In this document: piece by piece, positions 3,904-45,500 of the stretch
Position numbering within the stretch: the first letter of the stretch is position 1
Layout of the letters: the number at the start of each line of letters is the position of its first letter
Source of the DNA: Lytechinus variegatus
Taxonomy: Eukaryota; Echinodermata; Echinoidea; Temnopleuroida; Toxopneustidae
DNA: 64,000 bases
Assembly: GCF_018143015.1 (NCBI RefSeq)
Contig: NC_054750.1
Span: 5,448,501-5,512,500, forward strand
Direction: 5' to 3'
Made by a program: the position numbers and the translations under genes
Notes under the pieces: generated by a model
Seen by the model: only the letters and a program-made list of their open reading frames with translations
What the model was told of the DNA's origin: nothing
Databases searched by the model: none

Positions 3904-4108
3904 CAGAGCTGCCAAGTAGTACTGATTTTCCGTATTTAGTACTGAAAATAGAGAAGAATACTGATGGTTTCATGCAAAATACTGATTTCTTAAGTTTCAG
4001 TTTATGTGTTGTCCTATGGTATTCCTGTGAAAATACTAATTTCCTCACCAAAATATTGATTTTCAGCCTTGAAAATACTGAAATATTCTTGTTCAGGTTG
4101 GCAGCTAA
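3904..4108. repeat. Putative short TIR element
   Basis: Inverted ends agctgccaa (left) and ttggcagct (right) enclose about 200 bp with repeated 'aatactgattt' phrases. No open reading frame or clear target duplication. It may be a degenerate MITE. Confidence 0.45.
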
Positions 4109-14428: not shown

Positions 14429-17400
14429 TCATGACGACGACGCCGGGAGGCAGTCGGCCAGGATTTCCTTGGTGGTGCTCGGTAGATGGTCGGGAAATAC
14501 AATGTCAAAGGTGATGAGGAGGTCGCCACGGCGACTGGGCTGTTTGGGGTACGGGAGTCCCTCGCCCGTCACCCGCTTCCTGGAGTTGGGCTTGATGACT
14601 TCTTTGCAGGGGACTGTTATCGTTCGCCCTTCGATGGTCGGTACTTTCAAGCTGGTCCCTACCAGGGCCTGGAAAATGAAAGAAGAAAAATGCACAAAAA
14701 TACAGAAGATTAAAAATTATGTGAAAACAGGAAAGATAAAAAGAGTTTTCTTCATCTGAATGAGAGTAAAATGTTAGGTAGATACAGACTACAGTATACT
14801 GGGTAGGAAATAATATTTATTTGGGGGGCTTTTCTTTCAATTTAAGGGCTACTTTTTAGGGGCAACAAGCAAATTATGCAGTAAATCCAAATAACATTAT
14901 TCTGCCATAGTTAGAATATTGATTTCTAATCTAATCTTGAATATCTGTTGTGACGAATCTTGGGGCAACTCTACAAAGAAAGGTTGCCCCAAAGCATGCA
15001 TTTTGGGGGAATTTTACGGGTGATTTGAGCTGTCATGAGGGTGAAATTGCCCGTCAACCTCATGGATTTCCCACAATTTAGATACATATGTATAATACAT
15101 GTGTGTATGGTTGTACATGTAACTTGAAGATTATTCAATTTGTCATGTTTTCAAATCTGTGTCCCATTGCAAAAAAAGTGCCATTATGGGATATGAATAC
15201 AAAATTTCCATGGTAACAGGAATATGCAGCTGAGCCCATCCAAATTGTGTTTTCCAGTTCCATGGTAAATTACCATAATGTCAAAGATATGAAAGTTTTT
15301 AAAGGCACTAGGAAACACACTGCGACCCATTTATAGTAAAATCACAGTACCGTATCAAATTAGAGACATTTATGTGGAGACAAATATGGCAGAAGAAAAG
15401 TGAAATGTTTTTTCTATCCAATAACAGAGGGATAACATCATAACAACAATCGCTTGCCAAATACTCTGCATGTTTACAGACATGTATATATTCAAAATGT
15501 GGGTGACTAATGGAGATCCCTGATTGTAAATTCTTAGCATTTTGAGAATCCAGAAAGCCAACATGTCTGCTTGCTGAGCTCATCACCAGGCTTATGACTG
15601 TCACCTTTGCTAATCAAAACACAGGGGATATCACGCACATAGCGGTCTTGTTATTGAATTGTCTGATTTTTCCACGATGGCCCTCATGCCTTATCACATA
15701 TTGACATAAGTTAACTTATCAATTCTTTATAATAGCTCTTCAGTGATAACCAAGCACAGCTTTCCAAGTAATGAGCATGGTGATTCAGTCAGTGACCCCA
15801 TTTTCCCCCTATCATATCCCACAATGCATTCTGCGGACTTGGCCCGAGGCCTCTATTCATTGACATGTACATGTAGGTTAAGGTCACGGTTTAAATCGCC
15901 TGCAGGAGGTACAAACTGCTGCAGTTTTTACACATTAACGTCAAAGATTAACAACTGGGGTTTATGAGCCAGGTTGATGAAGAGGCGGGCAAGCGGCGCC
16001 ACTGTGGCATGGGGGCAGCTAAGTTGATGATGCTACGGGGTGTCCCACATGACAGCGACCTATAAATACCATGTGACCCCCTGACTGTGACAAATACCAA
16101 AGTAGGCCAAGTGTTTGCGAGATGTTAGCTATGAGGCAGAGAGAGAGGAATGTCTGGCAGCAAGCTCTGCTCTACATTGATGTAGAAACTCAACCAGGAG
16201 CAAGCGGCGGCGCTCAGTCTGACATCAAAGTCAGTCTCATGCAATGAAATATATACTGGTATCGTAATAGGCTTATTTATTATCATAGGTCTTAATTTAA
16301 ATCTGAAATTAATACAGGTGCAGTGCAAAGGATGATGAATGCACTACTTGTCTATTGTTTAATGATCTTTGGATTCAGCCATCACGAACTGACTATGCAT
16401 GAAATTGTTTAGAATGCCAAGATATCTAGGACCATGCAACTACCAATCAGGCGTTGTAATAATGTACATTAAATTACTATGCATGTACATGTACATGTAT
16501 ATGAAAGCATTGGCCCTCCTCGGTTGCCTGACCTATCAGTAAACTTTATTCAAGGAAGAGAGGAAATGATTTGATACTCCCCTAATGAACAGTGAAAGAA
16601 TGCGTAGCTTCCACCACAATGTGAACTGGTGGCTATTTAATGAAGAAAAGTGCGACTTTTTAAATTAAGTGTCACACTGAAATTTCAGTTGCATACAGTG
16701 GATGCACCCCCAGCGCATTGGTCAGATCATGCGCAAGAAACACGCACAATCGCATAGCCATCAATCAGATTACACATTTAAGTAACATATATACACATTG
16801 ACATGAAGCATGGGGCATTGCAAAAAACTTGCGATCAATTACACGTCTGTTCTTAGTCCCCACTCCCCACATCAATCATATGTCTTGCAATTAATTGTAA
16901 ATTCGTGATTGTTGATTTGCTTCTTTCAAGGAGAGTAATCCACTACTAATTTGGGTCTACACTCTAGAACACAAATTGTGTTTACTAGGAATAGCGACAT
17001 CAGCAGTCGCAAGAAATATACAATGCCCAGCAGGTGATGGGTTTGTTGTTTTGATTTTGACTCATCAGCTACTAACACTCAGAAGTCATGCTGTTGTGTA
17101 TCATGTTTTTTTCTGAACGATACCTTTCACCAACATCGGGACAGAGAGTGACTGAAGGTACAACTGAACAAGATTTAAAGGGATGGTCCAGGCTGAAATA
17201 TGTATATCTTAATAAATAGAGTAGAATTCACTGAGCAAAATGCTGAAAATTTTATCAAAATCGGATAACAAATAACAAAGTTATTGAATTTTGAAGTTAA
17301 GCAATATTTTTTGAAAAAAGTCGTCATGAATATTTATTAGGTGGGCTGATGATGTCACATCTCCAATTGTTCTTTTGTATTTTATTATATGAAATTAGGT

Positions 17401-20400
17401 TTATTCAATTTTTTTCCACCAAGAACTACAAAAATTGGATTGACAACTGATTTAGTGCATTAGATATTTTTTTGCTGCAGCTTATTTCATTATAAGGGAG
17501 ACTATTATTCACACAAGTATGAAATAATGAAAAAAATATGATTTTTATGTCATAACATTAGAAAACGGAAAGTGGAGGTGTGACATCATCAGCCCACCTA
17601 ATGAATATTCATGACGACTATTTCACAAAATATCGCTAAACTTTAAACTTCAATAACTTTTTTATTTGTTATCTGATATTGATGAAATCTTCAGCATTTT
17701 GCTCAGTGAATTCTACTCTACATTATGAATTAAGATATAAATATTTTTAGCCCGGACCATCCCTTTAAAAGATCATGCCCTTCTGCTTTTGGGCAAATTT
17801 ACATCTCACCTTGGTACTTTGTAAGAATCATAGTCATAAATAACCTTAACTATTCTTAAAAGTTTTCCTGCTCAAACCTGTTTACACTACAGCTCTACAC
17901 TGCTTCCAAATTTGATGAATTTTTCTAAAGCTATGCTATAATGCTTAAAGGAATGGGTTTTTTTACAGAGTAAAAAAAATGTAAGGTCTACATGAAGCAT
18001 GGAGCTGACACTCCATGCATGTAGTATACATGTAGATGTATTAACGAGAATTGGAATCATGCCCTGTGCAATTATGGCAAAAAAATCTTGGCCATTAATT
18101 TCATTTGACAGAAATGAAAAGTATACTAAGAAGTAGTCAGTCAATCTAATGTGCATAGTAACTTAATCAATTAAACTTGAACTTAAAATTGAAAGACCAC
18201 CAAAATATGAATAAACTTAAGCCCCCTCCCCTCCGCAAGCATATAAAAATTGTCATGACTTTTTTGTGAAACAGAGATTCTAAGCAAACATGAAAATGAA
18301 GAACTTATAAATTTATTTTTTGCTTTCATAGAATTACTAGTAGACATGAATGGTAACTCTTTCCAAAGATGTCTCTAACCTATTCAAATACTTTTTTAAA
18401 GAGATCTGTACCTTGAAAACTTCATCCAGATGTAATTCTTTTAGAAATATATAGGCCTACAGTATTGAAAATGTACTTGTAATTTCAAAGTAGGCCTATG
18501 TTCTAATCAATCTAATGTACATATACATGTAGGGTGACTTGGGACTAATATGCAAGCCTCAGGTCACCCTTCACTATGAAGACAAAAAATAAAATAATGA
18601 TAAAAATTCTTGGTGACTATGTACACAACCCACTGATTCATCTACATGTAACTTCAAAAAAATATATTTAGATCAAAATCAAACACAAAGAAAGAAAAAC
18701 AAACTAGATTGATCAGTGAAAGTTTGAAAAATCAAGGAATGGGTTTCAGTTGTTAGGAAAGTAGGAATGAGATCATTTATACTATATAAATTTCAAACTG
18801 GCAATCTAGTGAGTGAGTGGATTGTGATAAGTGGTAAAAGGATAACTTTCATATTTTCCATACGTAGATCTACTTGATTGTAAAAAATTATCGGCTTTCT
18901 CCATTCTCCAAAGTCCAAAGCAATGTTATCTTCATAGTGGTTGTTTTATGTCATCATAAAGAATTTTCTTTTCAGTTATAACAAATTTCAGCTTTTTTTC
19001 AATCAGGAAAAATTAGTTGTCAGTTACCTTAATATAAAGAGTACCGTACATCACAATGAAATCTCCAGTAATATTACCATAATCACACCTTTCTAGAAAT
19101 TTTTTTAAGTTCATTTTTTTATTGTCTGATTTTGATTAATCTGCCTCCATAGAGTGTCTGGTCCTGGGGTGGAATTTCCCTTAGAAAAAAAATTGATAGA
19201 ATCAAACCTACATGTATATTAAAGATAAATTCCAGTATTGGTAACGATCTCAAAATGACTTTTTACATTCTAATATAATGACCACCCAAGTGTCTGTTTG
19301 TATGAATAAAAAATATGTGCCAAAGGATTCTGGAAGAAATTGTGTAATTGCTGAGAAATAAGCAAAATAAGCGCGGATTCGGTCACTTCCGTCGGTCTTT
19401 ATTCCAGCAATAATAATACACTGTCCCACGTGTGCCTATCTGTGTTGGTGATCTTCAGTGTGAACATTTTTCAGCATAGATTTCAAGATTTCACAAAGTT
19501 CAGTTTATAAAAACTTAACCAGATCTAGATCCTCGATGATATACTGACAATTAAGCCTTGTTTTACAGACTTTCTCATGAAATCAGTGTTTACTGCAACT
19601 ACTGGAATTTCTCTTTAAAGCTTGTTAAGATACTTACATCTCTAAGTGGAATTCTTGCTTTGTAGACTAAATTACTCCCATCTCTGTTGAAAACTGAATG
19701 TGGTATGTCTTTGAGGGTGAACACAATATCTGCAGGAGTTTTCTTTGGACCTTGGTCTCCTTCTTTGGGAAATGTGATTTTGGTGCCTTCCTTCCATCCA
19801 GGTTTCACATTAATTTCAAGGATTTTGTCCTCAGTCCTCGTCGTTCGGCCATCTTCATTCAACACTCGACGGTTGATTTTCATTTTCTTTGTGCACCCAC
19901 GGAAGATGTCCTCGAGTGTGACCCTTAGGTCATGGTGTACTGGTGGATCTTGGCGCTTCCTTTGACTGTTGCTTCGCTGTTGGTGGACTCCCGGGAACCC
20001 ACCAAATCCAAAGTCGTCATCAACGTCCATTGCTTCGGGTTGGCCACCGGAGAAGTTAAAACGAGTGTTCTGCTGGCCGCCCATTCCACCAACATTAAAA
20101 AACATTTCAAATGGGTTGCTATTTCCAAAGAAGCTTGTGAAGGTTGCATTTGGATCGCCATGGAATGACCAAGAGTAGTTCTCTCCTTGTTCTCCTTGCG
20201 GGGCACCTGCACCTCCCTTCAGTCCTTCCTCTCCATATTTATCATAAATTTTCTTCTTTTTCTTGTCACTTAAAACTTCATAAGCTTCTGCTATTTCTTT
20301 GAACTTTTCTTCTGCTCCTTTGCTTTTATTCTTGTCCGGATGGTACTTCAGTGCCATCTTCCGATAGCCTTTCTTGATTTCATCATCGGAGGCATCCTTG

Positions 20401-20435
20401 GATACCCCGAGCACCTTGTAATAATCTTTCCCCAT
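14429..20435 (-). CDS. DNAJB1: DNAJB1/4/5-type HSP40 co-chaperone
   Basis: Two coding exons on the minus strand: 20435-19638 and 14668-14429 (stop TGA 14431-14429), about 345 aa, close to human DNAJB1 (340). J domain at residues 1-70 with HPD at 32-34 (LKYHPDKN). A G/F-rich linker follows (GDPNATF, GGMGGQQ), with no zinc-finger repeats, so type II. The C-terminal substrate-binding domains include [39 protein letters not shown] and, in exon 2, [14 protein letters not shown] and [12 protein letters not shown]. The donor is GAT|gtaagt, the acceptor ttccag|GCC, phase 0. MGKDYYK is taken as the start because its context (accaaaATGG) is stronger than the ATG nine bases upstream and matches the family N-terminus. 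The product stimulates HSP70 ATPase and delivers clients in cytosol and nucleus. The symbol stands for the whole DNAJB1/4/5 group. A 5 kb intron separates the exons. Confidence 0.93.
17179..17764. mobile_element. TTAA-flanked MITE, 586 bp (family 1, source arm)
   Basis: TTAA at 17175-17178 and 17765-17768 flank an element starting agggatggtcc and ending ggaccatccct. Terminal inverted repeats extend about 180 bp and include gtagaattcactgagcaaaa and its complement near the other end. There is no coding content. TTAA plus 5'-AGG ends suggest a Kolobok- or piggyBac-related origin. A TA duplication (Tc1/mariner style) cannot be excluded. Confidence 0.85.
19223..19614. mobile_element. TTAA-flanked MITE, 392 bp (family 2, source arm)
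   Basis: The ends are agataaattccagta (left) and actggaatttctct (right), flanked by TTAA at 19219-19222 and 19615-19618. It sits 19 bp into the DNAJB intron, just inside the donor. Further copies are at 24753-25144 (duplicate arm) and about 55541-55928 (independent insertion). Confidence 0.85.
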
Positions 20436-20899
20436 TTTGGTCATAGGTGACGGCTATCTTTGTCTCCTCAAACAGATATGAAATATTCTTCACCTTCACA
20501 AATAACAAGGAAGATGTTCGTCCTTAAAGTTAAAATGGCTCCTCTTTAATTAAATATCTGTATGTAACAGCTGGGAGAACAGGGTAGAAAATGAGTATTG
20601 CAAAGCCAAAGGTTCGAACTACTAGTATAGTATTAAACGTTGATACCAAATCCAAGGCAAGTTCGTTGATGACGTTGATCGATGTTGCACAAAATAAGAG
20701 AGAAACAATGTTCTTCACACGTTAGTGTTTGGTAGCAAACCTCGAGATTTCGACTGCTCAATCGTTTCACTTGAACTCGAGCAAGCTCTTGACGGCATTA
20801 ACGAAAAATTTCTGAATCTTTCGCTTTTCAACCAGCTCATGACTCTCCGCAGCTGCGCCGCATAAGGATAATGATGATCTGGCCAGGGATAGCCCGGCG

Positions 20900-20948
20900 A
20901 CGTCACGTAATCCCGTATGAAATCGAATGTACACGAATATTCTCGAAG
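20900..20948. promoter_or_regulatory. DNAJB heat-shock element and CRE-like site
   Basis: The bases cGAAtaTTCtcGAAg at 20934-20948 form a perfect three-pentamer heat-shock element (nGAAnnTTCnnGAAn), about 0.5 kb upstream of the DNAJB start. A CRE-like gacgtcacg lies near 20900. No clear TATA box was seen on the minus strand. An HSF1-responsive promoter is expected for this gene class. Confidence 0.75.
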
Positions 20949-21093
20949 CATCGCGATGTAAACAAGGCAAACAAGGCGCGCGCGCGAACCCAGGCTTGAA
21001 CACTTGTGTATACGGTAAGTCGCCCATTTTGGCTATTTGATTTTTACCCCCTTGAGTTATACACAGGGCTGTCAACATTTGGCGTGTTCCTGA

Positions 21094-21663
21094 CCCGGGG
21101 GGGGGGGGGCACTTACATTGACAAGTGGATACCATGCGCGACCAAAAAAACACGTAAAAAGGATGTCTTTTTCACGATAGGACACGTTACGTACGTAACG
21201 TGATAAGGGTGTCAAAAACACAAAAATAATGAAAAAAGCGTATCTATTTCCCTTGGAAAATTACGTGTTTAGGGTCAAATTTGTGGGGATGATAAAACAA
21301 AATCAAAATGTTTTATAAAGGATGTCCTTTTTCCCCCAACACTTCGTGTTTAGAGTCCGATTTGCGCGAGATGTAGAATATGGGAATATGGGTTCGTACT
21401 AAACCAAATGAGGTAAAGCAGACGACCGAAGGACCCGTAACAATAAAACATTCCTGTACTTGTTTAGGGGTTCATTTCAGGGAATATTTGCCAAGAGTAT
21501 CGTTTTGTTTCCAATACTTGTTAAGGGTAGGGTTTCACACGCCAGTACTTGTTAAGGGGTGCATTTTCAGAATATGGAAATTACGTGTTTAGGGTGCTTT
21601 TCGGGACCCCATGGTCGCGCATGGTATCCACTCGTGAATGGAAGTGGGCCCCCCCCCCCGGGG
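21094..21663. mobile_element. hAT-like MITE, 570 bp, with 8-bp target duplication
   Basis: A perfect 8-bp direct repeat, gttcctga, flanks the element at 21086-21093 and 21664-21671. The ends are inverted: cccggg then a G run, and a C run then cccgggg. Inside these is gtggataccatgcgcgacc on the left, matched by ggtcgcgcatggtatccac near 21611-21631. The interior repeats the phrase 'acttgtt(t/a)aggg'. No transposase frame, so it is non-autonomous. Confidence 0.88.
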
Positions 21664-21849
21664 GTTCCTGAGCAAAAATGGCTTGTTTCCCGCCGCACCG
21701 GGCTTCATTTCGGTTGGGGGAAACACCCATTTTGCTGCTTGCTTGCCATCCACAAAACATTGAAAAGTGGGAACAGCTCCGGCATTTCAGGCAAATACTA
21801 TTTTGACGGGGATTCGTTTTGGCAATGTTTCCAGTCACACAAAAGTAAT

Positions 21850-22140
21850 AGCTCTTTATAAAGAGGATATACCCCTCCCCGCCGTTTTATCGTTAATCCC
21901 CCCCCAAAAAAAAAAAAGTTCAAAAAGTAAAAAAAAATAGAACAGCATAAAAGAAGAGTGAATAAAAGGAGACCTACCTCCCAAACTTTTATTTCTCACG
22001 TAGTCAAGCTCACATTGCTAAATGAAAAAAAAAGTTTTCAAAAGTGCCATAGGCCCTCATAGCGCTTTATAGAGAGGATGATCCTCTCCCCACCGGCCCG
22101 ACCGGTAATCGCCACCCCCCCCCCCCCCCCCTTAAAAAAA
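21850..22140. repeat. Two diverged direct copies of a C-tract repeat
   Basis: The motif ctttata(a/g)agaggat, followed by ctcccc, cgg..ttaat/gtaatc, a C run and an A run, occurs at about 21852-21920 and 22064-22140. This looks like a local duplication, or two insertions, of a homopolymer-ended repeat. Confidence 0.5.
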
Positions 22141-22449
22141 ACATACACACACACGGTCATATTTAGGGCTAGGTATGATAGTTCGGCATAAACACAACCA
22201 TGATATGATACTGCTTTCGAGAGAGTCCTGTACATATAACAATAATAATAAAATGGTGAACATTTACAGAATTAATTAAAAAGAAAAATTACATACAGTA
22301 CAAAAGAAATGAAATTCAAAAGCATACATACAAAATTTACAATACATAATAGATACATAGAGTGATCACAATGTAACAATACAATTATAATATAATTATC
22401 ATAATTATCATAATCCAAACGAGAAGTCGAAAAACAGTATACCCAGTTG

Positions 22450-22677
22450 TTGTGTATCCGGACGGGTTGTGTGTCCGGACGATCAATTTTAGAATCATTT
22501 GGAAAAATTTACAAGCGAAGTTTCATCAATTTTTAGTGCAAAATGTTAGGAAATATTATAGAGAACAAAATAGAAGATGATTACCTCAATTGAATTCGTA
22601 TTTTTAGTGTAATCCAAAGACAAAAAAGAAGGCTTCAAAAATATAAACTTTAATAAAGTGTCCGGACACCCGACCCC
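22450..22677. repeat. Putative TIR element with GTCCGGAC ends
   Basis: The left end carries gggttgtgtgtccggac (about 22464-22480) and the right end gtccggacacccgaccc (about 22660-22677), an imperfect inverted repeat around AT-rich filler. Target duplication not resolved. Confidence 0.45.
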
Positions 22678-22804
22678 CATCCTACAGTAATTCAGATCTA
22701 TGCATCGATACCAAGGATTCATATACTGGTATATTTAGTCAGTGTGAAAAGGCCCCGCTCTATTTATAAACACTGCGTAAATTATGCACGCTACGAGTAT
22801 ACAC

Positions 22805-22866
22805 GAGAAGCTTCTCAAACTAGAAGCTTCTCCGCTTTTACCGAAGCTGGCGCATGTGCTATAAAA
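22805..22866 (+). promoter_or_regulatory. HSP70 promoter: paired heat-shock elements and TATA box
   Basis: Two GAAnnTTC dimers, gagaagcttctc (GAA 22807, TTC 22812) and agaagcttctcc (GAA 22823, TTC 22828), sit 30-50 bp upstream of TATAAAA (22860-22866). This implies transcription start near 22890 and a 5' UTR of about 220 bp to the ATG at 23111. It is a textbook heat-inducible layout. The core promoter itself looks undamaged although the gene downstream is broken. Confidence 0.85.
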
Positions 22867-23184
22867 TCAGCCACCTCGCTTGGAGAGTTTCAATTTCAAA
22901 ACTCGACATCTCGGAGTGCGCACAGAATATCAGAGAGACAGTCTTCTCGAATCCTCAAGTATTTCAACAGGAATACCTGGATCATCATTTGCGTTTCAAC
23001 TTGAGAAAATATTTATACAGAAACATTTGAGAAATAAGGTTGAACCTGTATATATTTCCACAAACGAATTATCCTTTTCAGGAATCCTTTGTAAACAATT
23101 TTTATTTAACATGGCACCAAGGAAAGCACCAGCGATTGGAATTGATCTGGGTACCACCTATTCTTGTGTAGGTGTATTTCAGAA

Positions 23185-23957
23185 GGCAGTGTATACAGCC
23201 ACACGCGTGTGTCTTTACCATCCAGCCACACGCGTGTGGTTATATCCAGAACACCTATCTGTGGATACCGCCACACGCCGCAAGTAATAACAGTAAAACA
23301 CGTATGTAGGTCTGACCGTCTATATCACGATCAAAATAACCTCATTTCTTCATTAAATTCTTACATTCTAAACCCCTTTGATATCCTTAGATCATTTCAT
23401 TCTCACCGTCTTCTCTCCTTGCTTTTCTTGTCTTGTTACAAACGGTCGTCTGTTTAACAGCAAATTCTCTTTTTCTACTTGTGTCGATTCTGGCTTCCTT
23501 CGCGGTACGGTGGCAGACCCATACAGGGTTAGCGCAGCGCAGTAGACATACACAGTTTGGGTTACGTTTACGTTTGGTACGAATAATTTTCATACCAAGC
23601 GTTAAGCATGCACGAATCCCGAGTTTCGTACGTACGCACGTACACGCACATAGCCTAGAGTCAGTAGAGAATCGACACAAGTAGAAAAAGTGTGGAAATT
23701 TGCTATTTAACAGGCGGCCTTTTGTAACAAGACAAGAAAAGCAAGGAAAGAAGACGGTGAGAATGAAATTGAAACGATTTAAAGAAATCAGAGTGGTTTA
23801 GAATGTAAGAATTTAATGAAGAAATGAGGTTATTTTGATCGTGATATAGACGGTCAGACCTACATACGCGTTTTACTGTTATTACTGGCGGCGTGTGGCG
23901 GTATCCACAGATAGGTGTTCTGGATATAACCACACGCGTGTGGCTGTATACACTGCC
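23185..23957. mobile_element. Mutator-like (MULE-type) non-autonomous element, 773 bp
   Basis: Perfect 9-bp duplications atttcagaa flank it at 23176-23184 and 23958-23966; removing one restores an HSP70 reading through VFQNGKVE. Termini are ggcagtgtatacagccacac and its complement. The inverted arms are about 290-305 bp (23185-23491; 23667-23957), the left one carrying one extra 27-bp unit around cacacgcgtgtg. The central 175 bp is unique. A 9-bp target duplication with long TIRs is the hallmark of the Mutator superfamily. No transposase is present. High arm similarity and a perfect duplication suggest a recent insertion. Confidence 0.9.
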
Positions 23958-24131
23958 ATTTCAGAATGGAAAGGTGGAGATCATTGCTAACGATCAAGGA
24001 AATAGGACCACACCCAGCTATGTCGCCTTCACAGATACAGAAAGATTGATTGGAGATGCAGCTAAGAATCAAGTGGCAATGTAAGTAAAGTTTCTCTCTT
24101 TATAATCATACCTTATTGCTTCATCACAATC

Positions 24132-24768
24132 TGGAGAGGAAGGACTGAAGGGAGGTGCAGGTGCCCCGCAAGGAGAACAAGGAGAGAACTACTCTTGGTC
24201 ATTCCATGGCGATCCAAATGCAACCTTCACAAGCTTCTTTGGAAATAGCAACCCATTTGAAATGTTTTTTAATGTTGGTGGAATGGGCGGCCAGCAGAAC
24301 ACTCGTTTTAACTTCTCCGGTGGCCAACCCGAAGCAATGGACGTTGATGACGACTTTGGATTTGGTGGGTTCCCGGGAGTCCACCAACAGCGAAGCAACA
24401 GTCAAAGGAAGCGCCAAGATCCACCAGTACACCATGACCTAAGGGTCACACTCGAGGACATCTTCCGTGGGTGCACAAAGAAAATGAAAATCAACCGTCG
24501 AGTGTTGAATGAAGATGGCCGAACGACGAGGACTGAGGACAAAATCCTTGAAATTAATGTGAAACCTGGATGGAAGGAAGGCACCAAAATCACATTTCCC
24601 AAAGAAGGAGACCAAGGTCCAAAGAAAACTCCTGCAGATATTGTGTTCACCCTCAAAGACATACCACATTCAGTTTTCAACAGAGATGGGAGTAATTTAG
24701 TCTACAAAGCAAGAATTCCACTTAGAGATGTAAGTATCTTAACAAGCTTTAAAGAGAAATTCCAGTAG
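24132..24768 (+). pseudogene. Truncated DNAJB exon 1 copy inside HSP70
   Basis: This is a copy of DNAJB exon 1 from codon about 68 ([10 protein letters not shown]) to the exon end (IPLRD), then the donor gtaagtatctt. Read through, the frame stops at 24766-24768. The whole J domain including HPD is missing, and exon 2 is absent from the duplicated arm, so no working co-chaperone is encoded. It lies in the same orientation as HSP70. Without an acceptor just upstream it is not an obvious HSP70 fusion exon. Confidence 0.88.
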
Positions 24769-25144
24769 TTGCAGTAAACACTGATTTCATGAGAAAGTCT
24801 GTAAAACAAGGCTTAATTGTCAGTATATCATCGAGGATCTAGATCTGGTTAAGTTTTTATAAACTGAACTTTGTGAAATCTTGAAATCTATGCTGAAAAA
24901 TGTTCACACTGAAGATCACCAACACAGATAGGCACACGTGGGACAGTGTATTATTATTTCTGGAATAAAGACCGACGGAAGTGACCGAATCCGCGCTTAT
25001 TTTGCTTATTTCTCAGCAATTACACAATTTCTTCCAGAATCCTTTGGCACATATTTTTTATTCATACAAACAGACACTTGGGTGGTCATTATATTAGAAT
25101 GTAAAAAGTCATTTTGAGATCGTTACCAATACTGGAATTTATCT
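24753..25144. mobile_element. MITE family 2, copy in right arm
   Basis: Carried along in the duplication: TTAA at 24749-24752 and 25145-25148, with the same ends as 19223-19614 in reverse. Confidence 0.85.
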
Positions 25145-26593
25145 TTAATATACATGTAGGTTTGATTCTATCAATTTTTTTTCTAAGGGAAATTCCACCC
25201 CAGGACCAGACACTCTATGGAGGCAGATTAATCAAAATCAGACAATAAAAAAATGAACTTAAAAAAATTTCTAGAAAGGTGTGATTATGGTAATATTACT
25301 GGAGATTTCATTGTGATGTACGGTACTCTTTATATTAAGGTAACTGACAACTAATTTTTCCTGATTGAAAAAAAGCTGAAATTTGTTATAACTGAAAAGA
25401 AAATTCTTTATGATGACATAAAACAACCACTATGAAGATAACATTGCTTTGGACTTTGGAGAATGGAGAAAGCCGATAATTTTTTACAATCAAGTAGATC
25501 TACGTATGGAAAATGTGAAAGTTATCCTTTTACCACTTATCACAATCCACTCACTAGATTGCCAGTTTGAAATTTATTTAGTATAAATGATCTCATTCCT
25601 ACTTTCCTAACAACTGAAACTTATTCCTTGATTTTTCAAACTTTCACTGATCAATCTAGTTTGTTTTTCTTTCTTTGTGTTTGATTTTGATCTAAATATA
25701 TTTTTTTGAAGTTACATGTAGATGAATCAGTGGGTTGTGTACATAGTCACCAAGAATTTTCATTATTTTATTTTTTGTCTTCATAGTGAAGGGTGACCTG
25801 AGGCTTGCATATTAGTCCCAAGTCACCCTACATGTATATGTACATTAGATTGATTAGAACATAGGCCTACTTTGAAATTACAAGTACATTTTCAATACTG
25901 TAGGCCTATATATTTCTAAAAGAATTACATCTGGATGAAGTTTTCAAGGTACAGATCTCTTTAAAAAAGTATTTGAATAGGTTGGAGACATCTTTGGAAA
26001 GAGTTACCATTCATGTCTACTAGTAATTCTATGAAAGCAAAAAATAAATTTATAAGTTCTTCATTTTCATGTTTGCTTAGAATCTCTGTTTCACAAAAAA
26101 GTCATGACAATTTTTATATGCTTGGGGGAGGGGAGGGGGCTTAATTTTATTCATATTTTGGTGGTCTTTCAATTTTAAGTTCAAGTTTAATTGATTAAGT
26201 TACTATGCACATTAGATTGACTGACTACTTCTTAGTATACTTTTCATTTCTGTCAAATGAAATTAATGGCCAAGATTTTTTTGCCATAATTGCACAGGGC
26301 ATGATTCCAATTCTCGTTAATACATCTATACTACATGCATGGAGTGTCAGCTCCATGCTTCATGTAGACCTTATCCTTTTTTTTACTCTGTAAAAAAACA
26401 TTCCTTTAAGCATTATAGCATAGCTTTAGAAAAATTCATCAAATTTGGAAGCAGTGTAGAGCTGTAGTGTGAACAGGTTTGAGCAGGAAAACTTTTAAGA
26501 ATAGTTAAGGTTATTTATGACTATGAGTTTACAATTGTAAGTACCAAGGTGAGATGTAAATTTGCCCAAAAGCAGAAGGGCATGATCTTTTAA

Positions 26594-27178
26594 AGGGATG
26601 GTCCGGGCTAAAAATATTTATATCTTAATTCATAATGTAGAGTAGAATTCACTGAGCAAAATGCTGAAGATTTCATCAATATCAGATAACAAATAAAAAA
26701 GTTATTGAAGTTTAAAGTTTAGCGATATTTTGTGAAATAGTCGTCATGAATATTCATTAGGTGGGCTGATGATGTCACACCTCCACTTTCCGTTTTCTAA
26801 TGTTATGACATAAAATCATATTTTTTTCATTATTTCATACTTGTGTGAATAATAGTCTCCCTTATAATGAAATAAGCTGCAGCAAAAAAATATCTAATGC
26901 ACTAAATCAGTTGTCAATCCAATTTTTGTAGTTCTTGGTGGAAAAAAATTGAATAAACCTAATTTCATATAATAAAATACAAAAGAACAATTGGAGATGT
27001 GACATCATCAGCCCACCTAATAAATATTCATGACGACTTTTTTCAAAAAATATTGCTTAACTTCAAAATTCAATAACTTTGTTATTTGTTATCCGATTTT
27101 GATAAAATTTTCAGCATTTTGCTCAGTGAATTCTACTCTATTTATTAAGATATACATATTTCAGCCTGGACCATCCCT
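26594..27178. mobile_element. MITE family 1, copy in right arm
   Basis: Carried along in the duplication: TTAA at 26590-26593 and 27179-27182, with the same agggatggtcc ends as 17179-17764. Confidence 0.85.
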
Positions 27179-29073
27179 TTAAATCTTGTTCAGTTGTACC
27201 TTCAGTCACTCTCTGTCCCGATGTTGGTGAAAGGTATCGTTCAGAAAAAAACATGATACACAACAGCATGACTTCTGAGTGTTAGTAGCTGATGAGTCAA
27301 AATCAAAACAACAAACCCATCACCTGCTGGGCATTGTATATTTCTTGCGACTGCTGATGTCGCTATTCCTAGTAAACACAATTTGTGTTCTAGAGTGTAG
27401 ATGCAAATTAGTAGTGGATTACTCTCCTTGAAAGAAGCAAATCAACAGTCACAAATTTACAATTAATTGCAAGACATATGATTGATGTGGGGAGTGGGGA
27501 CTAAGAATAGACGTGTAATTGATCGCAAGTTTTTTGCAATGCCCCATGCTTCATGTCAATGCGTATATATGTTACTTAAATGTGTAATCTGATTGATGGC
27601 TATGCAGTAGTGCGTGTTTCTTGCGCATGATCTGACCAATGCGCTGGGGGTGCATCCACTGTATGCAACTGAAATTTCAGTGTGACACTTAATTTAAAAA
27701 GTCGCACTTTTCTTCATTAAATAGCCACCAGTTCACATTGTGGTGGAAGCTACGCATTCTTTCACTGTTCATTAGGGGAGTATCAAATCATTTCCTCTCT
27801 TCCTTGAATAAAGTTTACTGATAGGTCAGGCAACCGATGAACCGAGGAGGGCCAATGCTTTCATATACATGTACATGCATAGTAATTTAATGTACATTAT
27901 TACAACGCCTGATTGGTAGTTGCATGGTCCTAGATATCTTGGCATTCTAAACAATTTCATGCATAGTCAGTTCGTGATGGCTGAATCCATAGATCATTAA
28001 ACAATAGACAAGTAGTGCATTCATCATCCTTTGCAATGCACCTGTATTAAGTTCAGATTTCAGATTTAAATTAAGACCTATGATAATAAATAAGCCTATT
28101 ACGATACCAGTATATATTTCATTGCATGAGACTGACTTTGATGTCAGACTGAGCGCCGCCGCTTGCTCCTGGTTGAGTTTCTACATCAATGTAGAGCAGA
28201 GCTTGCTGCCAGACATTCCTCTCTCTCTGCCTCATAGCTAACATCTCGCAAACACTTGGCCTACTTTGGTATTTGTCACAGTCAGGGGGTCACATGGTAT
28301 TTATAGGTCGCTGTCATGTGGGACACCCCGTAGCATCATCAACTTAGCTGCCCCCATGCCACAGTGGCGCCGCTTGCCCGCCTCTTCATCAACCTGGCTC
28401 ATAAACCCCAGTTGTTAATCTTTGACGTTAATGTGTAAAAACTGCAGCAGTTTGTACCTCCTGCAGGCGATTTAAACCGTGACCTTAACCTACATGTACA
28501 TGTCAATGAATAGAGGCCTCGGGCCAAGTCCGCAGAATGCATTGTGGGATATGATAGGGGGAAAATGGGGTCACTGACTGAATCACCATGCTCATTACTT
28601 GGAAAGCTGTGCTTGGTTATCACTGAAGAGCTATTATAAAGAATTGATAAGTTAACTTATGTCAGTATGTGATAAGGCATGAGGGCCATCGCGGAAGGCT
28701 CTCGAAAGACGATATCGATCGTATGGTCAACGATGCCGAGAGATTCAAGGCCGAGGATGATGCCCAGCGTGAACGAATCGCCGCCAGGAACCAACTCGAG
28801 AGCTATGCCTTCAATGTCAAGTCTGCCGTCAACGACCCATCAGCCGATTCCAAGCTCAGTCCCAATGACAAGGAAGTTGTGACCAAAGCGGTTGATGATG
28901 TCATCAGTTGGATGGAAAACAACACTCTAGCGGACAAGGAAGAGTTGTCCTACAAACTCGAGGAGCTGCAGAAGACATGTTCTCCGATCATGTCTAAGTT
29001 GCACGCCGGACCTCAGGGACCTCAGGCATCGTCATCGTGCGGCGGAGGACCCACCGTTGAGGAGATGGATTAA

Positions 29074-36500: not shown

Positions 36501-39500
36501 GCCTGCAGAAATATAATTTACAATCGCTGATTTGTGTTTTTCTTGCCTTTTTCATCTATCATTTTAAAATATTTTGTTCATTTGATAATAGTTTAGGGTA
36601 TTTACATGAATATTGCATGTCAAGTATCCACCTTGCGTTCAAGGTGCTCCTAATTTTTTTTTTTAATCATTTTGTTTCTTGCCTCTTTCAGCTTAACAAA
36701 GGAGTGACCATTGATGATGTCAAGGAGGGTTTCTATCAGAAGAGTGAGTTATTGATTTATTCTGAAGTCCATGATTGCATTTATGATGAAATCCACAGAG
36801 ATTATGATCACCACTATTAAATGAACAACTTAGTAAAATAAAGATTGATAATGATTTGAGACATTTAAATAAAATATAAAAAGCAATAGAGTTATTTTAT
36901 CTATAAAAAAAAGTTTCATTAAATGTTCATTCGTATTCATCCTAGATATTATTATACTATAACTTATTATTTTTTTTATTCAGCTTTCAAACAAACAGAC
37001 ATTGACAGAAATACAAACAGAAAAGAGAGGTTAAAAAGTTATCTTCTTGATGAAAAAAAAACCTTTGTCTGTGAGAAGAAATTGATGTTTGATTTTCTGA
37101 AAAAGGTTATTTGAAACTTCTTTCAGTTTATTGTTGCATGAGTTTGATGAAATTGAACAAATAATTGTTACTGGTGATTTCAATGGTTAGAGTGCTTTTC
37201 CATTTAGAACAATGGTCTTTTCCATTTCTGAGAACCTTTAATTCTGTTTCAAAATTGATCACAAAGGGAAATACCATTTTGTCATAGAAGCTTTACACAG
37301 CAAAATTATCAATTCCATTTTGCAAAGGGTGAATTGAATGAATGTTCACATGGAAAGTAAAGAACGAAAGTGGATTCCTGTTTTTATTAACTGGTAAAAA
37401 AGAAATCTCTATCCCTAAATGATGAGTAATGTGTCTTCTGGTCCAACTTGACTTGTGTGTTGACTGGAATGAAGTGTTCTTCTAAACTCAGTTGTCCCAA
37501 TATGAATTTTCAATTCTTCCTATTTAACCCAGGTCCATATGAATATTTTTACTGTATTTTCAGGGTTTTTTTTTGGGGGGGATGGGCTGTTTTCAATAAT
37601 TCTCATTTAATCTATTATTTTGGGAAATGTGTTTGTTTTACAGATAGGAAGTTTTACCCTGATAGACAGTCATTCAGGACAGAGCCAAGTAAGTCTTTAC
37701 AAATGATTATGTAAGGGTTGAATTTTGCCTTGTTTAATGTAATTGTTTATTTCACCGTTTGCTTTCCATAGTTCTCTTCACTTCCCATTTCTTTACCATT
37801 GTTACACACCTGTTTCTCTCATTCCTTAGTTTCTACATCACATCATTCTATTGCCATTCCAACTCCATACAGCTTCACATGTTTCTTTTGTCCTTTTCTC
37901 ATTCTCATTCAGAACATTCTTCTTCATTCATATCATCCTATCTCATCCTCATTGGTTCACCTTTCACCCTTGGTTCTTCCACTTTTCTGGGTTCTTCCAT
38001 TCTTTCTTTCTCTATTGGTTGAATTTATCATGTGACACTATTTTTGAATATATAACTTGTAAAGGCAATGCCTAGTGTGGTCTGGATTTCAGGCCAATGA
38101 ATCAGAGCATCACTGGACTTCATTTTGGTCGACATCTTTATTTTGAGTTTAGTTCAATATAATATAATTTGAGTTTGCTCGTTTATGACTGATTTTGTGA
38201 GATGGATCTTAAAATAAAAGTAGTTCATATAAAGTGAGATTGGAAAGAACTTTGATACAAAAACTTGACAAATGATAATCAAAGGAAGTAATAGCATACA
38301 TTGCACAGTCACAAAACTTCCAAGAAATAATCTCTCTTCATGTTTTTAACCCTAACAACCTGTAATATTGCAGTCAGATCAAACGGGTCATATCCCTGAA
38401 GAAGACTGAAGTGTTCAGTCAAAAATTTGGAGGTAGATCAGTTTTACACATTCCAATTTGCGTTTGGATCTAAAGTTTTATTTTGTGGATGTTTCACTAG
38501 TGAAGTTTGACTCTCATTTGATGATGCATCTGTATCATATTTTGAATTATATTTCAAAGAATACACACTTGTAATTATAACTAAATTTCTAATTACTTAT
38601 TCAGAGGCGTTTGTTATGAATAACATTCAAAAGGTGTTATTCAAGCAACATATGTTTCGAAAATGTGCGAGTTAATTACCAGTACTATTCAATGTAAAGA
38701 ATGGTTGGAAAATAGAGGTAGGATGTACATGTACAGAAAGGTTGATTATTTTATTTTTTTCACTAATCTAACCATCTAACCTTGTTTTCTTTAAAGGAGA
38801 AATATATTGATTATGAATGTGGTCTTATTATATATCAATGGAAAGGTAATGATGTGGGGATCATCAGTGGGTCATTCAAAAATACCGAAAATAATACAAA
38901 AAGGTGAAAATCGCCGATTAAAAAACGCTAAAATGCCCCTCCGAAATATGCCTCGCATCGGTCTCTGAATTGACTGGAATTTGATGACGTCACTGTCTGT
39001 ACGAGAGGCGTGATTGGCTCTCCCACGTGAAGCTCCACTTGCATGCAAAACCTGTTGCGTGGGTACTTTTTCTCCACACTGTCACTGAATACTTCTATCA
39101 CGAAATGAAAGAAAACCCAGAATTTTATCTAGATTTGGATTTTCAAATTGATGATTTTAAAGATGAAGAGAATGATGATGAAGTGAACAACACAGTGAGG
39201 TAGTTGGAGGTAAATAATGGGGGAACAATGCTGATGATTATGATGAAAATTCAACTTGCCTGACGATCACAAGTAAAGTCATGTACATGCCGATTCGCTA
39301 CCAACTCATGAAGCTGCTGCTACAAGTGGTAGCTATACGTACACCGCGCGGGCCCAATTTAATCCATGAAAATGAATAACCACATCCAGAGAGAGTCTAT
39401 AGAGTCTATCATAAGAAGGAAAATAATGATATAACTGTACTTACAAACAAGTGAATAATCCGAATTAACCTGAAAGCAAATCAACTCAACGAATAGCAGC

Positions 39501-42500
39501 AGACGATATGCACCGACGATAAACTTCATGTGGCTGGGATAGATTGTCACTCGTTCTGTTTGTAATTTGTAACTCATTAATTTGACAAAATTACGAAACT
39601 CGGGGAATTATTTATATCTATAAAAATATAGTAACATCTCTTATTATTTTTTGTATTACGATAAAACCTCTTTTGAAGGAAAACGTTGAGATAAACTAAA
39701 ATTACTTTTAAATCCCCCCCAACATGCGTAGCTTGTATGTCATTGCAAACAAACCATCGCAAACATGCACGTATTCCTTTCCTTGCTGATTGAGAGCTGT
39801 GCAACACGTGCATAGATCTATTCTCTCAGTCTCAGCCAAGGCGAGCAAACAATACGGCATGTGTTGTTGTGATGGTTTGTTTACGATCACATAATGCTAC
39901 GCATGATGGGATGATCTTTTACATCTAATTTTAATTTACCTCAACGTTTTCCTTTAAAACAGGTTTTATCGTAATTCAAAAAATGATAAGAGATGTTACT
40001 ATATTTTTATATAGAATAATAATTCCCCGAGTTTCGTAATTTTGTCAAATTAATGAGATAAAAGTTACATCTAACAGAACGAGTGACAATCTATCCAGCC
40101 ACATGAAGTTTATCGTCAGTGCATATGCCATATCGATATTCGTTGAGTTGATTTGCCTTCAGGTTCGGATTATTCACTTGTTTGTAAGTACAGTTATATC
40201 ATTTTCCTTCTTATGATAGACTGTCTGGATGTGGTTATTCATGTTCAGCATGAATTCAATTTGGCCCGCGCGGTGTAGCTAGCACTTCCAGCAGCATGAA
40301 TTGGTAGCGAATCGGTATTTACATGACTTTACTTGTGATTGTGTTGCAAGTTGAATTTTCATCATCATCATCATCGGCGTAATTCCCCCAATTTACCTCC
40401 AACTACCTCACTGTGTTGTTTCACTTCATCATCATTCTCTTCATCTCAAAATCATCAATTTGAAAATCCAAATCTAGATAAAATTCTGGGTTTTCTTTCG
40501 ATCATTTCGGGATCGAAGTATTCAGTGACAATGTGGAGAAAATGTACCCTTGCAACAGGTTTTGCATGCAAGTGGAGCTTCACGTGGGAGAGCCAATCAC
40601 GCCTCTCGTACAGACAGTGACGTCATAAAAAATCCCCAATTTCGCGGACGTAATTCTGCGTGTTTGAAGCATTCAGAGAGAGAACTTTAAACTATCAATT
40701 AACTGAGTTTCATCCGTCTCCATGATAAATGATGTACACCATCGTGTTCTCCTTATTTTCTCCTTTATTGTGATATATGATTCTCCAGTTTTACGATTTT
40801 CAATATATTTCTACTTTAAACCTGAATTCAGAGGGTAAATCTTTGAAGGGAGATGCAACTTTAGGATCCCTGGGTATCACTCATGGTGATAGTCTTTACT
40901 TCAAGGATCTAGGCCCTCAGGTTGGATGGACTACGGTGAGTATACAACCATGAAAAGGTTTCCAAATGAGTTTGGTGTTTTATATACACCATAAAAGGGG
41001 TTTACAAATAAGTGTTTCATGATTTGTGTTACACACATCTTTACGCATTAGTGATCCTGACCTATTTGAAATCTGTGTATCGATATTATTGTTTGTTGGG
41101 TTGCAAGGCCCCCGAAGTATTGGAATACTAAAACCTCTGATGCTTTTTTTTTTCTTTTTTAATCAAACCAAGTAAAAGAAGTGAATTGGTAAATAAATTG
41201 AAATAAATGTAAATGTCTCTTGCGGTAATTATCTCAAAATGGGTCCAAACATAATAAAATTAGATGGCTACTAAGCTTTATCTGCCAGAAGGTTTTCGCA
41301 GAAAATGTGCAATTGGCTAATAGAAATGAGCAACATATATAAGCATGGCATTCAAGCTTTGTGTAGGGTCTTTTTTAAAAGCAAAAAGAACACACTGTCC
41401 CACATATTTATACATGTGTGTTGGCAATCTTTGGGGTAATTGTCTTTTAACTTCAATTTCATTATTTTACCATTTGAGGTATATGTTAATGTACCAGATC
41501 CCAATGAACCTTGATTAATAGATGATTACTGCAACTACGTTGTTAATATTCAAGTTCATTCCGTTCACCATAAATTGATGCTACATATACATTTCTGTTT
41601 CTGTTTATCCATGTTTTTGTAAATGTTGTTACAACCGATAATGTCGCACCAACGCATAATGTTGCAGCAACGCATAATGTCGCAATCTGCGACATTATGC
41701 CAAGAGCGTCCGACGCATAATGTCGCAGTCAACGCATAATGTCGTAGTTTTTCTAACGCATAATGTCACATGTCGCAACGCATAATGTCGCAGCAAATCG
41801 TTAACGCATAATGTCACATGTCGCAACGCATAATGTCACAGCGGTATTTTCTTCAGGACTTGAGCTACAGATAAGATATAAAACATGCTTTTACTTAGTA
41901 TTTTGAGACACGAATAAGAGAATGAAATTATTTTGAAATCAGGATTACTCTTTGTATGGATATTTGTCGCTTTATTGCCATTTCGTCTACTGCCTTTTCC
42001 CCACTATCGCATGGTCTGATATCATTTCGTCTACCATTAGTTAGTCAACTATCAACATAGTCCAATAACCATTTCGTCTAATTACCATCTCGTCTAATAG
42101 CCAGTTGGTTTAATAGCCGTTGTGTTTATTATCATTTAGTCTAATTGTATTTTTTTCAGTTGGTCCAATATCCATTTTGTCCAATATCATTACGTCTATT
42201 ACCTTTTGGTCTAATAGCCAATTGGTCTAATAACCACTTGGTGTACTCTCATTTTCGTCCATGTTCCATTTGGTCTAACTTCAGTTGGTTCGCTATCACT
42301 TTGTCTAAATCCATTTCGGCTAATACTCATTTGGTATCGTTGCCACGGGTCCAATCACCAATAGGTCCAATCATTGGTTCTAGGACAATTACCCCACGGA
42401 CAATCACCCTTCCGGACAACTAATCCCTGACAATTTTAGCCACCCGAGGACAATTACCCCCTGAGGACAATTACCCCCCGAGGACAATTACCCCCTGAGG

Positions 42501-45500
42501 ACAATTACACCCCGGACAATTACCCCCCTAGACAATTACTCCCGGACAACTGCCCCCTGTAGTACTACCCCGAGGACGATTACCCCCTGAGGACAATTAC
42601 ACTCCGGATAACTACCCCCTAGGGCAATTTCCCCCCGGACAATTACCCCCTGGACAACTACCCCCGATGACAATTACCCCCGGACAACTACCCCCGGACA
42701 ATTACCCCTTTGGACAATCCCCCCCCCGAGGACAATTACCCCCGGATAATAACCCCAGAGGACAATTACCAACGGAAACAATTACCCTGCCCCGGGGACA
42801 AAGAGAGTGCACAGAGTTAGGGCCTAAATAGTAAAATTACAAGGCGTTCTTGTGTATGTTATCTTTGCATATTTTTTTTGCTTACTGTATTAAAACTAAA
42901 GCCACATCTTAATCTGGAATGTGCACAAATTGTTTCATAATTCTTAGCTTCTTGTTAGATGAATTGTTTTAAAATAACAGATTTATAGGTTCTTCTTGTC
43001 AATAGTAGTGTTGATGGTTTGCGTTACCGACTTTCAATATTTCTACCCGTGAAGGTGTCTTTTTAATGTTTTATCTATTTTCCTGATTTTTTCCTGGAAT
43101 TAAACCCCAAATAAATCAAGAAAAATCAGATCAGTTGGAATCAGAGAAATTAGGCATTTGTGATTATTATGTCTAATGGTGTCTTTTCATGAATGTTCAA
43201 TTGTTGTATGAAAACTTTACACATTTTCTGATGTACATGTGCGTAGCTATATAGCGCAAGCCCCCACCCCCATTTTTCATGATGCAGAAGGCATTGCTAA
43301 ACAAAAAAAGAAAAAAGGCGGAAAAGGGAGAAAAAATGAAAAGGAAGAAAATGAGAGAGGGGGAGCGAGAAAAAGGGAGAGAGAGCGATATAAGAGAGAA
43401 AGTTATTAACATAAGATAAAGTAGAAAATATATTGAAAACCTGTGCCACCGACCCAGACCATTATAATGGATCACGCCCGGGGGGGGGGAACTCAGTATA
43501 TAATAATGTGCAGCGGAGGGGACCCCCAATTTGACACTCATATTTCCGTTCCAAGGCATAGCATCTTTGTCTTATTGAGAAAAAGAACAAATAAAGCCGC
43601 TCCAAGGCAAAACATTTTCTTCTTATCGAGAAAAAAGAAGAAAGAAATCCGCTCCAAAGCTTGTCATATTTTTCGTTACGCCGTTCCGGTTACATTGATC
43701 TGCTACAATGAGCTGCAGTTTTGGTGAAATGCGGCCGCAGAGCGCTGTCCGACCATCACCTCTGCGCGAGCGCACCCGGCGGACGTGCCGCCGGGCGAGC
43801 TACATCATGCACGCATGTCCGTTCCACAGGGATGCATCAGCACTGACACGCTAGCGATCCGTTCCAAGGACCCCGTTTTTTGTCTCGCCCGCGGCACACC
43901 CTTATACCACTTTTTTGGTCGAGTGTCCCCTCCCCCCCTGGTGTCACGCTTGATTCGATGCCAGAGAGAAGGTGGGGGGGGGGGGATTTTCCGGGGGTAA
44001 TTGTTTGGCGGTAACTGTCTGGGGAATCATTGTCCTCGGGGGCATTTGCTAGGGGGGTAATTGTCTGTGAAGTAATTGTCCAGGGGATGATTGTCCGGGG
44101 GTAATTGTCCTCGGGGGTAATTGTCCGGGGGGGGGTAATTGTCCTCGGAGGCTAAATGTTAAGAGGTGGTTGTCCGGAAGGTGATTTTCTGGGGGGTAAT
44201 TGTCCTAGAACCGGTGATAGGACCTAATGGTGATTGGACCCATGGCAACTATACCAAATGATTGTTAGCCGAAATGGGTTTAGACAAAGTGATAGCGAAC
44301 CAACTGAAGTTAGACCAAATGGAACATGGACGAAAATGAGAGTACACCAAGTGGTTATTAGACCAATTGGCCATTAGACCAAAAGGTAATAGACGTAATG
44401 ATATTGGACAAAATGGATATTGGACCAACTGAAAAAAAATACAATTAGACTAAATGATAATAAACACAACGGCTATTAGACCAACTGGCTATTAGACGAG
44501 ATGGTAATTAGACTAAATGGTTATTGGACTATGTTGATAGTTGACTAACTAATGGTAGACGAAATGATATCAGACCATGCGACTGAGGAAAAGGCAGTAG
44601 ACGAAATGGCAATAAAGCGACAAATATCCATACAAAGAGTAATCCTGATTTCAAAATAATTTCATTCTCTTATTCGTGTCTCAACATACTAAGTAAAAGC
44701 ATGTTTTATATCTTATCTGTAGCTCAAGTCCTGAAGAAAATACCGCTGTGACATTATGCGTTGCGACATGTGACATTATGCGTTAACGATTTGCTGCGAC
44801 ATTATGCGTTGCGACATGTGACATTATGCGTTAGAAAAACTACGACATTATGCGTTGACTGCGACATTATGCGTCGGACGCTCTTGGCATAATGTCGCAG
44901 ATTGCGACATTATGCGTTGCTGCGACATTATGCGTTGGTGCGACATTATCGGTTCATGAGTAACAAATGTGATGATGTGTACTATGTATTGTTTGCATAT
45001 TAATAAGGCTCTAATATATATGCACATGATATGCATAATGCCAACAAAACAAATGTAATGTTGCTGAAATAACATAAGAGCCAATGTAGACAACAGATAT
45101 AGTGAAATCAAGTCTCGACTCTTTGAGTTCCGTTTAATGTCTGATTCAATGTTGTACATTTAGGTGTGGCTCGCTCAAGCACGATAGTCAATTCAATAGC
45201 TCAACTTAAACTTGTAAGATTACAATGTATGCAGTAAATAACCAGGTGGTGACCTGAATATCTTAATTGTTCATGCACAACATTACTTTGAATAAACTAT
45301 AGTTGCATCAATGATTGTATACACAACAACAAATTTCCATTTGGACAAATAAATTTAATCTGAATGGTAATATTCCTGCTTGTTTTGAAGGTGTTTCTGA
45401 CGGAATATTCAGGTCCTCTCTTTGTCTATCTCCTGTTTTACTTGAGACCTTCAATCATCTATGGATCTGATGCATCACAGCCTCGTACTCTTGTGGCAAA

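Follow-up and report, generated by a model that had tools for sequence, protein, structure and literature searches.

How an inverted copy of part of one gene came to lie inside the gene next to it is the question raised by a DNAJB-HSP70 gene pair of the sea urchin Lytechinus variegatus. We analyzed this pair in a window of 64,000 nt (contig NC_054750.1 of RefSeq assembly GCF_018143015.1, positions 5448501-5512500), which belongs to contig C11 in our numbering. All genome searches covered this assembly of 869,567,369 bases in 33 contigs, to which the contig (C) and locus (L) labels used below also refer. The original prediction had described an inverted duplication at this locus, arising either as a duplication-inversion-deletion by template switching or through a join of two haplotypes by the assembler. 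The former is now the better supported: with a probability of about 0.75, a 4.57 kb piece of DNAJB was recently copied in the germline into HSP70 as a templated inverted insertion with deletion, of the type ascribed to microhomology-mediated break-induced replication (MMBIR). The haplotype join is weakened by the evidence given below and is retained as an option.

Self-BLAST of the window aligned 15670-20239 with 24128-28696 in inverted orientation (98.476% identity over 4,592 columns), and global alignment paired 15670 with 28696 and 20235 with 24132. The arm ends given in the original prediction lie within 2 bases of these positions. The left arm (15671-20235, minus strand) comprises the remainder of DNAJB exon 1 starting at about residue 70, together with about 3.97 kb of intron 1. 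The right arm (24132-28695, plus strand in the sense of DNAJB) is the inverted copy of the left and includes neither the J domain nor the last exon. Their similarity is far beyond chance. Over their whole length the arms differ by 28 substitutions at 4,543 sites and by 11 gap events, and the indels in the global alignment measure 1-8 bases; the two arms are thus non-identical, as had been predicted, and do not represent one folded read. All substitutions fall outside the inner 560 coding bases (19676-20235), in which none was found, so that the divergence of the rest is 28 substitutions at 3,982 sites (0.7%), with 12 gap events upon realignment. The coding slice omits the last 38 bases of the exon, which are counted in the slice treated as intron, and a one-base gap in the coding slice is a product of the unequal slice lengths. 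The inner end of the arms is free of any difference for 827 bp (19409-20235), which include all 598 coding bases of the arm.

No third genomic copy of the unique arm sequence was found among the best 40 of 9,236 candidates, the other matches among these representing one dispersed repeat of about 600 bp internal to the arm. The spacer between the arms (20240-24127) is single-copy: a spacer probe gave one whole-length match, and the remaining matches among the best 40 of 5,035 candidates corresponded to repeats within the spacer. That the 3.9 kb spacer holds both promoters was correctly predicted, but the description was incomplete. It also contains the DNAJB start with the J domain, HSP70 exon 1 with a 773 bp transposon that had gone unmentioned, and 47 bp of HSP70 intron 1.

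Which copy was the source can be read from the ends of the DNAJB gene. Our model of the gene on the minus strand consists of exon 1 (20444-19638), a GTAAGT donor, an intron of about 5 kb and exon 2 (14668-14429), and encodes 348 aa. Exon 1 encodes the J domain (PF00226, E 3.8e-29) followed by the beginning of DnaJ_C (PF01556, E 5.3e-24), and exon 2, which lies outside the arm, matches the remainder of DnaJ_C. The left gene thus combines the J domain and DnaJ_C in one gene, as expected of a type II DnaJ/Hsp40 (DNAJB) protein, while the right copy retains only the DnaJ_C part (E 1.5e-24). The original prediction had equated the left arm with an intact DNAJB. The gene is whole and untouched as judged from this model, but the arm covers its middle only: it runs from about residue 70, directly past the J domain, into intron 1, where it ends, and the start codon lies beyond it in the spacer. 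Since both ends of the gene are missing from the right copy and the left gene has the full 348 aa model, we regard the left copy as the source and the right one as derived.

HSP70, on the plus strand, is broken by the inverted copy. Its exon 1 (23111-24080, residues 1-63) starts with the ATG at 23111, is interrupted by the transposon and is followed by a GTAAGT donor from 24081. The surviving 3′ part of exon 2 (28693-29073) begins at about residue 510 and includes the EEMD end and the stop codon. Intact HSP70 genes on contig C15 have the identical two-exon plan, and in exon 2 of one of them (L012), similarity to the window begins only at residue 447 of that exon (28693-29070, 77% identical). 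Residues 64 to about 509 and most of intron 1 are therefore absent. This agrees with the predicted loss of residues 64-508 or so and with the predicted position of the right arm between HSP70 intron 1 and the middle of an exon, the HSP70 pieces being in order and the core missing. With its core replaced and exon 1 split as well, this HSP70 is, from its sequence, dead.

The tail of HSP70 still records its history. Compared with the C15 genes over 125 codons, its nonsynonymous divergence (dN) is 0.115-0.123 and its synonymous divergence (dS) is 1.65-2.02; against the HSP70 genes on contig C8, dN is 0.33 and dS is not computable. Averaged over both lineages, these values suggest that the tail was long under purifying selection before the damage. 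Exon 1 shows a dS of only 0.32-0.37 and a dN of 0 against the C15 genes (50 codons). Because this dS is far below that of the tail, the 5′ part of HSP70 may have undergone an older gene conversion. Two HSP70 loci on C15 and two on C8 have second exons that are open over 591-627 codons, and the two on C8 are perhaps one gene assembled twice. The C15 loci form an intact head-to-head HSP70 pair (C15:12559244-12569761; L011, L012 and L041), 95.7% alike over 1,769 bases including exon 2.

We then compared the sequences at the two junctions. At the outer junction (28685-28697), the DNAJB intron, in which the left arm continues, reads CATCGTGGAAAAATC, the chimera at the end of the right arm reads CATCGCGGAAGGCTC and the paralogue L012 reads ACAGTGGAAGACTC. 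GGAA is common to all three, and GTGGAA to the intron and L012. Judged from this paralogue, which stands in for the HSP70 sequence before the event, a microhomology of about 4 bp probably lay at the outer junction. The corresponding sequences of three paralogues are GTGGAAG (L012), GTGGGAG (L011) and AGGGAAG (L009). At the inner junction (24126-24133), where HSP70 intron gives way to DNAJB exon 1, the HSP70 side reads CACAATC followed by TGGAGAGG, and the source DNAJB reads ATAAATA followed by TGGAGAGG, AAT being common to both beside the join. The window contains no N bases, at the junctions or elsewhere, although gap-filled contig ends would escape this check.

The arms, their boundaries, the lost codons and the transposon are read directly from the DNA; a template-switch route, the outer microhomology, a germline origin and the presence of both junctions in the animal are what we infer. 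The event would have started from a divergent gene pair with DNAJB on the minus and HSP70 on the plus strand. A strand copied through the common promoter region into HSP70 intron 1 would have changed template there, taking up the opposite strand within DNAJB exon 1, and been extended through DNAJB for 4.57 kb. A second switch would have led from DNAJB intron 1 to about residue 510 in HSP70 exon 2, guided by a few bases of microhomology. Two template switches would yield the entire structure in one event: an inverted duplication around a spacer present once, with the core of HSP70 deleted.

As described for MMBIR (PMC2621351), the process combines duplications in either orientation with deletions, involves microhomology of 2-5 bp and regains a viable chromosome through a second inverted switch. 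The locus resembles the MMBIR and fork stalling and template switching (FoSTeS) cases described there in its inverted duplicated segment with a deletion, its short junction microhomology and its second inverted switch. Like them, it holds an inverted copy of nearby sequence beside an intact source, has lost sequence where the copy was inserted (HSP70 residues 64 to about 509) and, as seen through L012, shares a few bases across its outer junction. In contrast, the events discussed there span tens to hundreds of kb and come from patients, whereas the segment here measures 4.6 kb and was seen in a reference assembly, its mechanism being deduced from one allele. Fold-back inverted duplications with a disomic spacer (PMC3907307) share the single-copy spacer between non-inverted and inverted copies, but are described with a terminal deletion, a translocation or a ring, while the present duplication is interstitial and returns into the same gene. 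In the window, a single-copy spacer does separate the copies, and there is no adjoining terminal deletion, translocation or ring, as the sequence re-enters HSP70 and continues. A broken hsp70 is also found in the fly Oxycera pardalina. The coding region of that hsp70 pseudogene is disrupted by a 306 bp deletion and a 677 bp inversion (PMC3071340); unlike the present case, the inversion lies within hsp70 itself and retroposition was proposed, whereas the inverted segment studied here is copied from the neighboring DNAJB. The rearrangement is thus a well-preserved instance of an ordinary, already known kind. Among the papers listed for sea urchin HSP70 and DNAJB, for head-to-head Hsp70/Hsp40 promoters and for the L. 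variegatus assembly and its haplotigs, we recognized no account of this locus.

Alternatively, the right arm might be the other DNAJB allele, misoriented and spliced into an HSP70 allele by the assembler. We consider this unlikely. The 0.7% divergence of the arms outside the inner coding part is well below that of near-allelic pairs on contigs C8 (4.5%, non-exon) and C3 (4.9%), and below the heterozygosity of about 3% given for L. variegatus (PMC11310861). The junctions are free of N, and a misjoin needs two joins, one of them at a point of microhomology inside an HSP70 exon. A second haplotig was found neither for the right flank, with 6 of 6 candidates scored, nor for the left flank among the best 40 of 815 candidates. 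For the second-haplotype searches with the arm, the spacer and the left flank, which covered the best 40 of 9,236, 5,035 and 815 candidates, respectively, repeats could mask a match. Template switching is thus favored by the outer microhomology in the paralogue, the lack, among the candidates scored, of a third place for the unique arm sequence and of a second haplotig for the flanks, and an arm divergence lower than the reported allelic value. Several points weigh against it. Other near-allelic pairs lie on the same chromosome in this assembly, inverted on C8 and C4 and direct on C3, which makes misplaced haplotigs plausible, and the substitution divergence of the C4 pair is 1.06%, near that of the arms, which shows that pairs of low divergence exist. 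The microhomology depends on the paralogue chosen as proxy for the HSP70 before the event, as L011 (GTGGGAG) lacks GGAA. Finally, the support for the event comes from one reference assembly.

The remaining alternatives concern the likeness of the arms. It is very unlikely that an older duplication has been kept alike by gene conversion between them. The 827 bp inner end without any difference, with its 598 coding bases, would fit such conversion, and if both copies had drifted, the lack of a coding change would have a P of 0.014; this test used 606 bases, while the arm holds 598 coding bases. However, the longest difference-free run is unexceptional for 27 merged events (P 0.13), and with only the right copy drifting about 2 coding changes are expected, for which none has a P of 0.12. 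The coding identity is thus weak evidence either way. That a fold-back (hairpin) read was made into the contig is hardly credible: inverted arms are the shape expected of such a read, but this artefact is contradicted by the 28 substitutions and 11 gap events between the arms, and the 3.9 kb spacer and the continuation of the outer end as HSP70 coding sequence also speak against it. The chance that a mobile element has the arms as its long terminal inverted repeats is close to nil. The window does hold two further inverted repeats (38980-40630 and 41633-44954) that belong to dispersed families with at least 30 other places each, and against this contrast the copy number of the arms contradicts a transposon. 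The arms were found at two places, any further match among the best 40 of 9,236 candidates being the internal repeat of about 600 bp, and consist of a DNAJB exon and intron.

The same-chromosome pairs on C8, C4 and C3 may be misplaced or retained haplotigs. On C8, an HSP70 gene and its surroundings have a second, inverted copy about 1.07 Mb away (11.31-11.335 and 12.391-12.416 Mb; L009, L010 and L042-L045). The 4.65 kb loci are 95.4% identical by BLAST, longer pieces are 93-98% alike, stretches on both sides align, and the non-exon divergence of 4.5% corresponds to a Kimura two-parameter distance of 4.6%. A probe about 42 kb away had no counterpart in the 9 kb stretch taken as its partner, and the genome-wide matches of this probe were filled by a transposon. 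The C8 pair may be a misplaced haplotig or a large true inverted duplication. The C4 pair (C4:5072168 and C4:8425487; L027 and L028) is inverted, about 3.35 Mb apart and 95.3% identical by BLAST. The C3 pair (near 44.2, 45.2, 46.2 and 47.2 Mb; L015 and L016) is direct and about 2 Mb apart, and its two largest pieces are 93.7% and 95.9% identical.

The templated insertion could have placed the copied DNAJB exon under the HSP70 heat-shock promoter, spliced to the HSP70 tail. The copied DNAJB donor at 24730 and a cryptic acceptor AG after 28665 (or 28683) would join the tail in frame, and the predicted fusion has at most 291 aa from an internal ATG at 24262 (156 + 135 codons). The C-terminal domain region of DNAJB proteins binds clients and the EEVD tail of HSP70; in a true hybrid, this region would be fused to the HSP70 EEMD tail. 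Such a hybrid gene is highly improbable. The cryptic acceptor has a poor pyrimidine tract, and the first ATG opens a peptide of 58 aa that stops inside the transposon, which makes a fusion protein unlikely. Because transcription from the HSP70 promoter would run through the DNAJB copy in its sense direction, an antisense effect is not expected. The locus would represent a clean recent case of a gene destroyed by its neighbor's inverted copy, with the source and both junctions readable. If the junctions are real, it would provide a natural case for the proneness of head-to-head gene pairs to such events, and would raise the questions of segregation of the allele and of flipping of the 3.9 kb spacer by recombination between the 4.6 kb arms. 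Automated annotation may list a non-functional HSP70 or a second DNAJB here.

The region between the two genes was scanned for heat-shock elements under one rule for the spacer and for a control of 48,000 bases of the window. In the 2,676 bp that separate the two ATGs, two sites had runs of four or more units, each with 2 mismatches; the control had none. One heat-shock-element-like site lies upstream of HSP70 (about 22943-22962, plus strand; 4 units) and the other upstream of DNAJB (about 20934-20958; 5 units). Three-unit runs with at most 1 mismatch numbered 7 in the control and 0 in the spacer. TATA-like sequences are located upstream of HSP70 at 22860 and 23013. By consensus match, these motifs are compatible with a divergent heat-shock gene pair. 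No similarity was found between the DNAJB-HSP70 spacer and the intergenic stretch of the C15 HSP70 pair (L041).

The transposon in HSP70 exon 1 (23185-23957) is an inverted-repeat element of 773 bp flanked by a 9 bp target duplication, ATTTCAGAA. Presumably it is a Mutator-like element (MULE-like). Its flanking codons encode FQ and NGK, in agreement with the C15 genes, which are uninterrupted. Nearly whole matches were found at 39 other places among the best 40 of 5,035 candidates. An exact 9 bp duplication was present in 3 of the 7 copies fetched (L002, L004 and L006); the flanks agreed at 7 of 9 bases in L003 and L008, none was present in L005, and L007, the left end of which gave no motif match, was not scored. 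Because the closest of the seven differs at 2 of 765 bases, the insertion is recent.

As for the other two inverted repeats of the window, 38980-40630 is a near-complete palindrome of 1651 bp, 84.5% identical to its own reverse complement; its occurrence at 39 other places among the best 40 of 517 candidates points to a dispersed foldback-type element. The 3.3 kb element at 41633-44954 has inverted ends of about 920 bp that are 94.2% alike, and a matching piece longer than 2 kb was found at 31 other places among the best 40 of 5,120 candidates.

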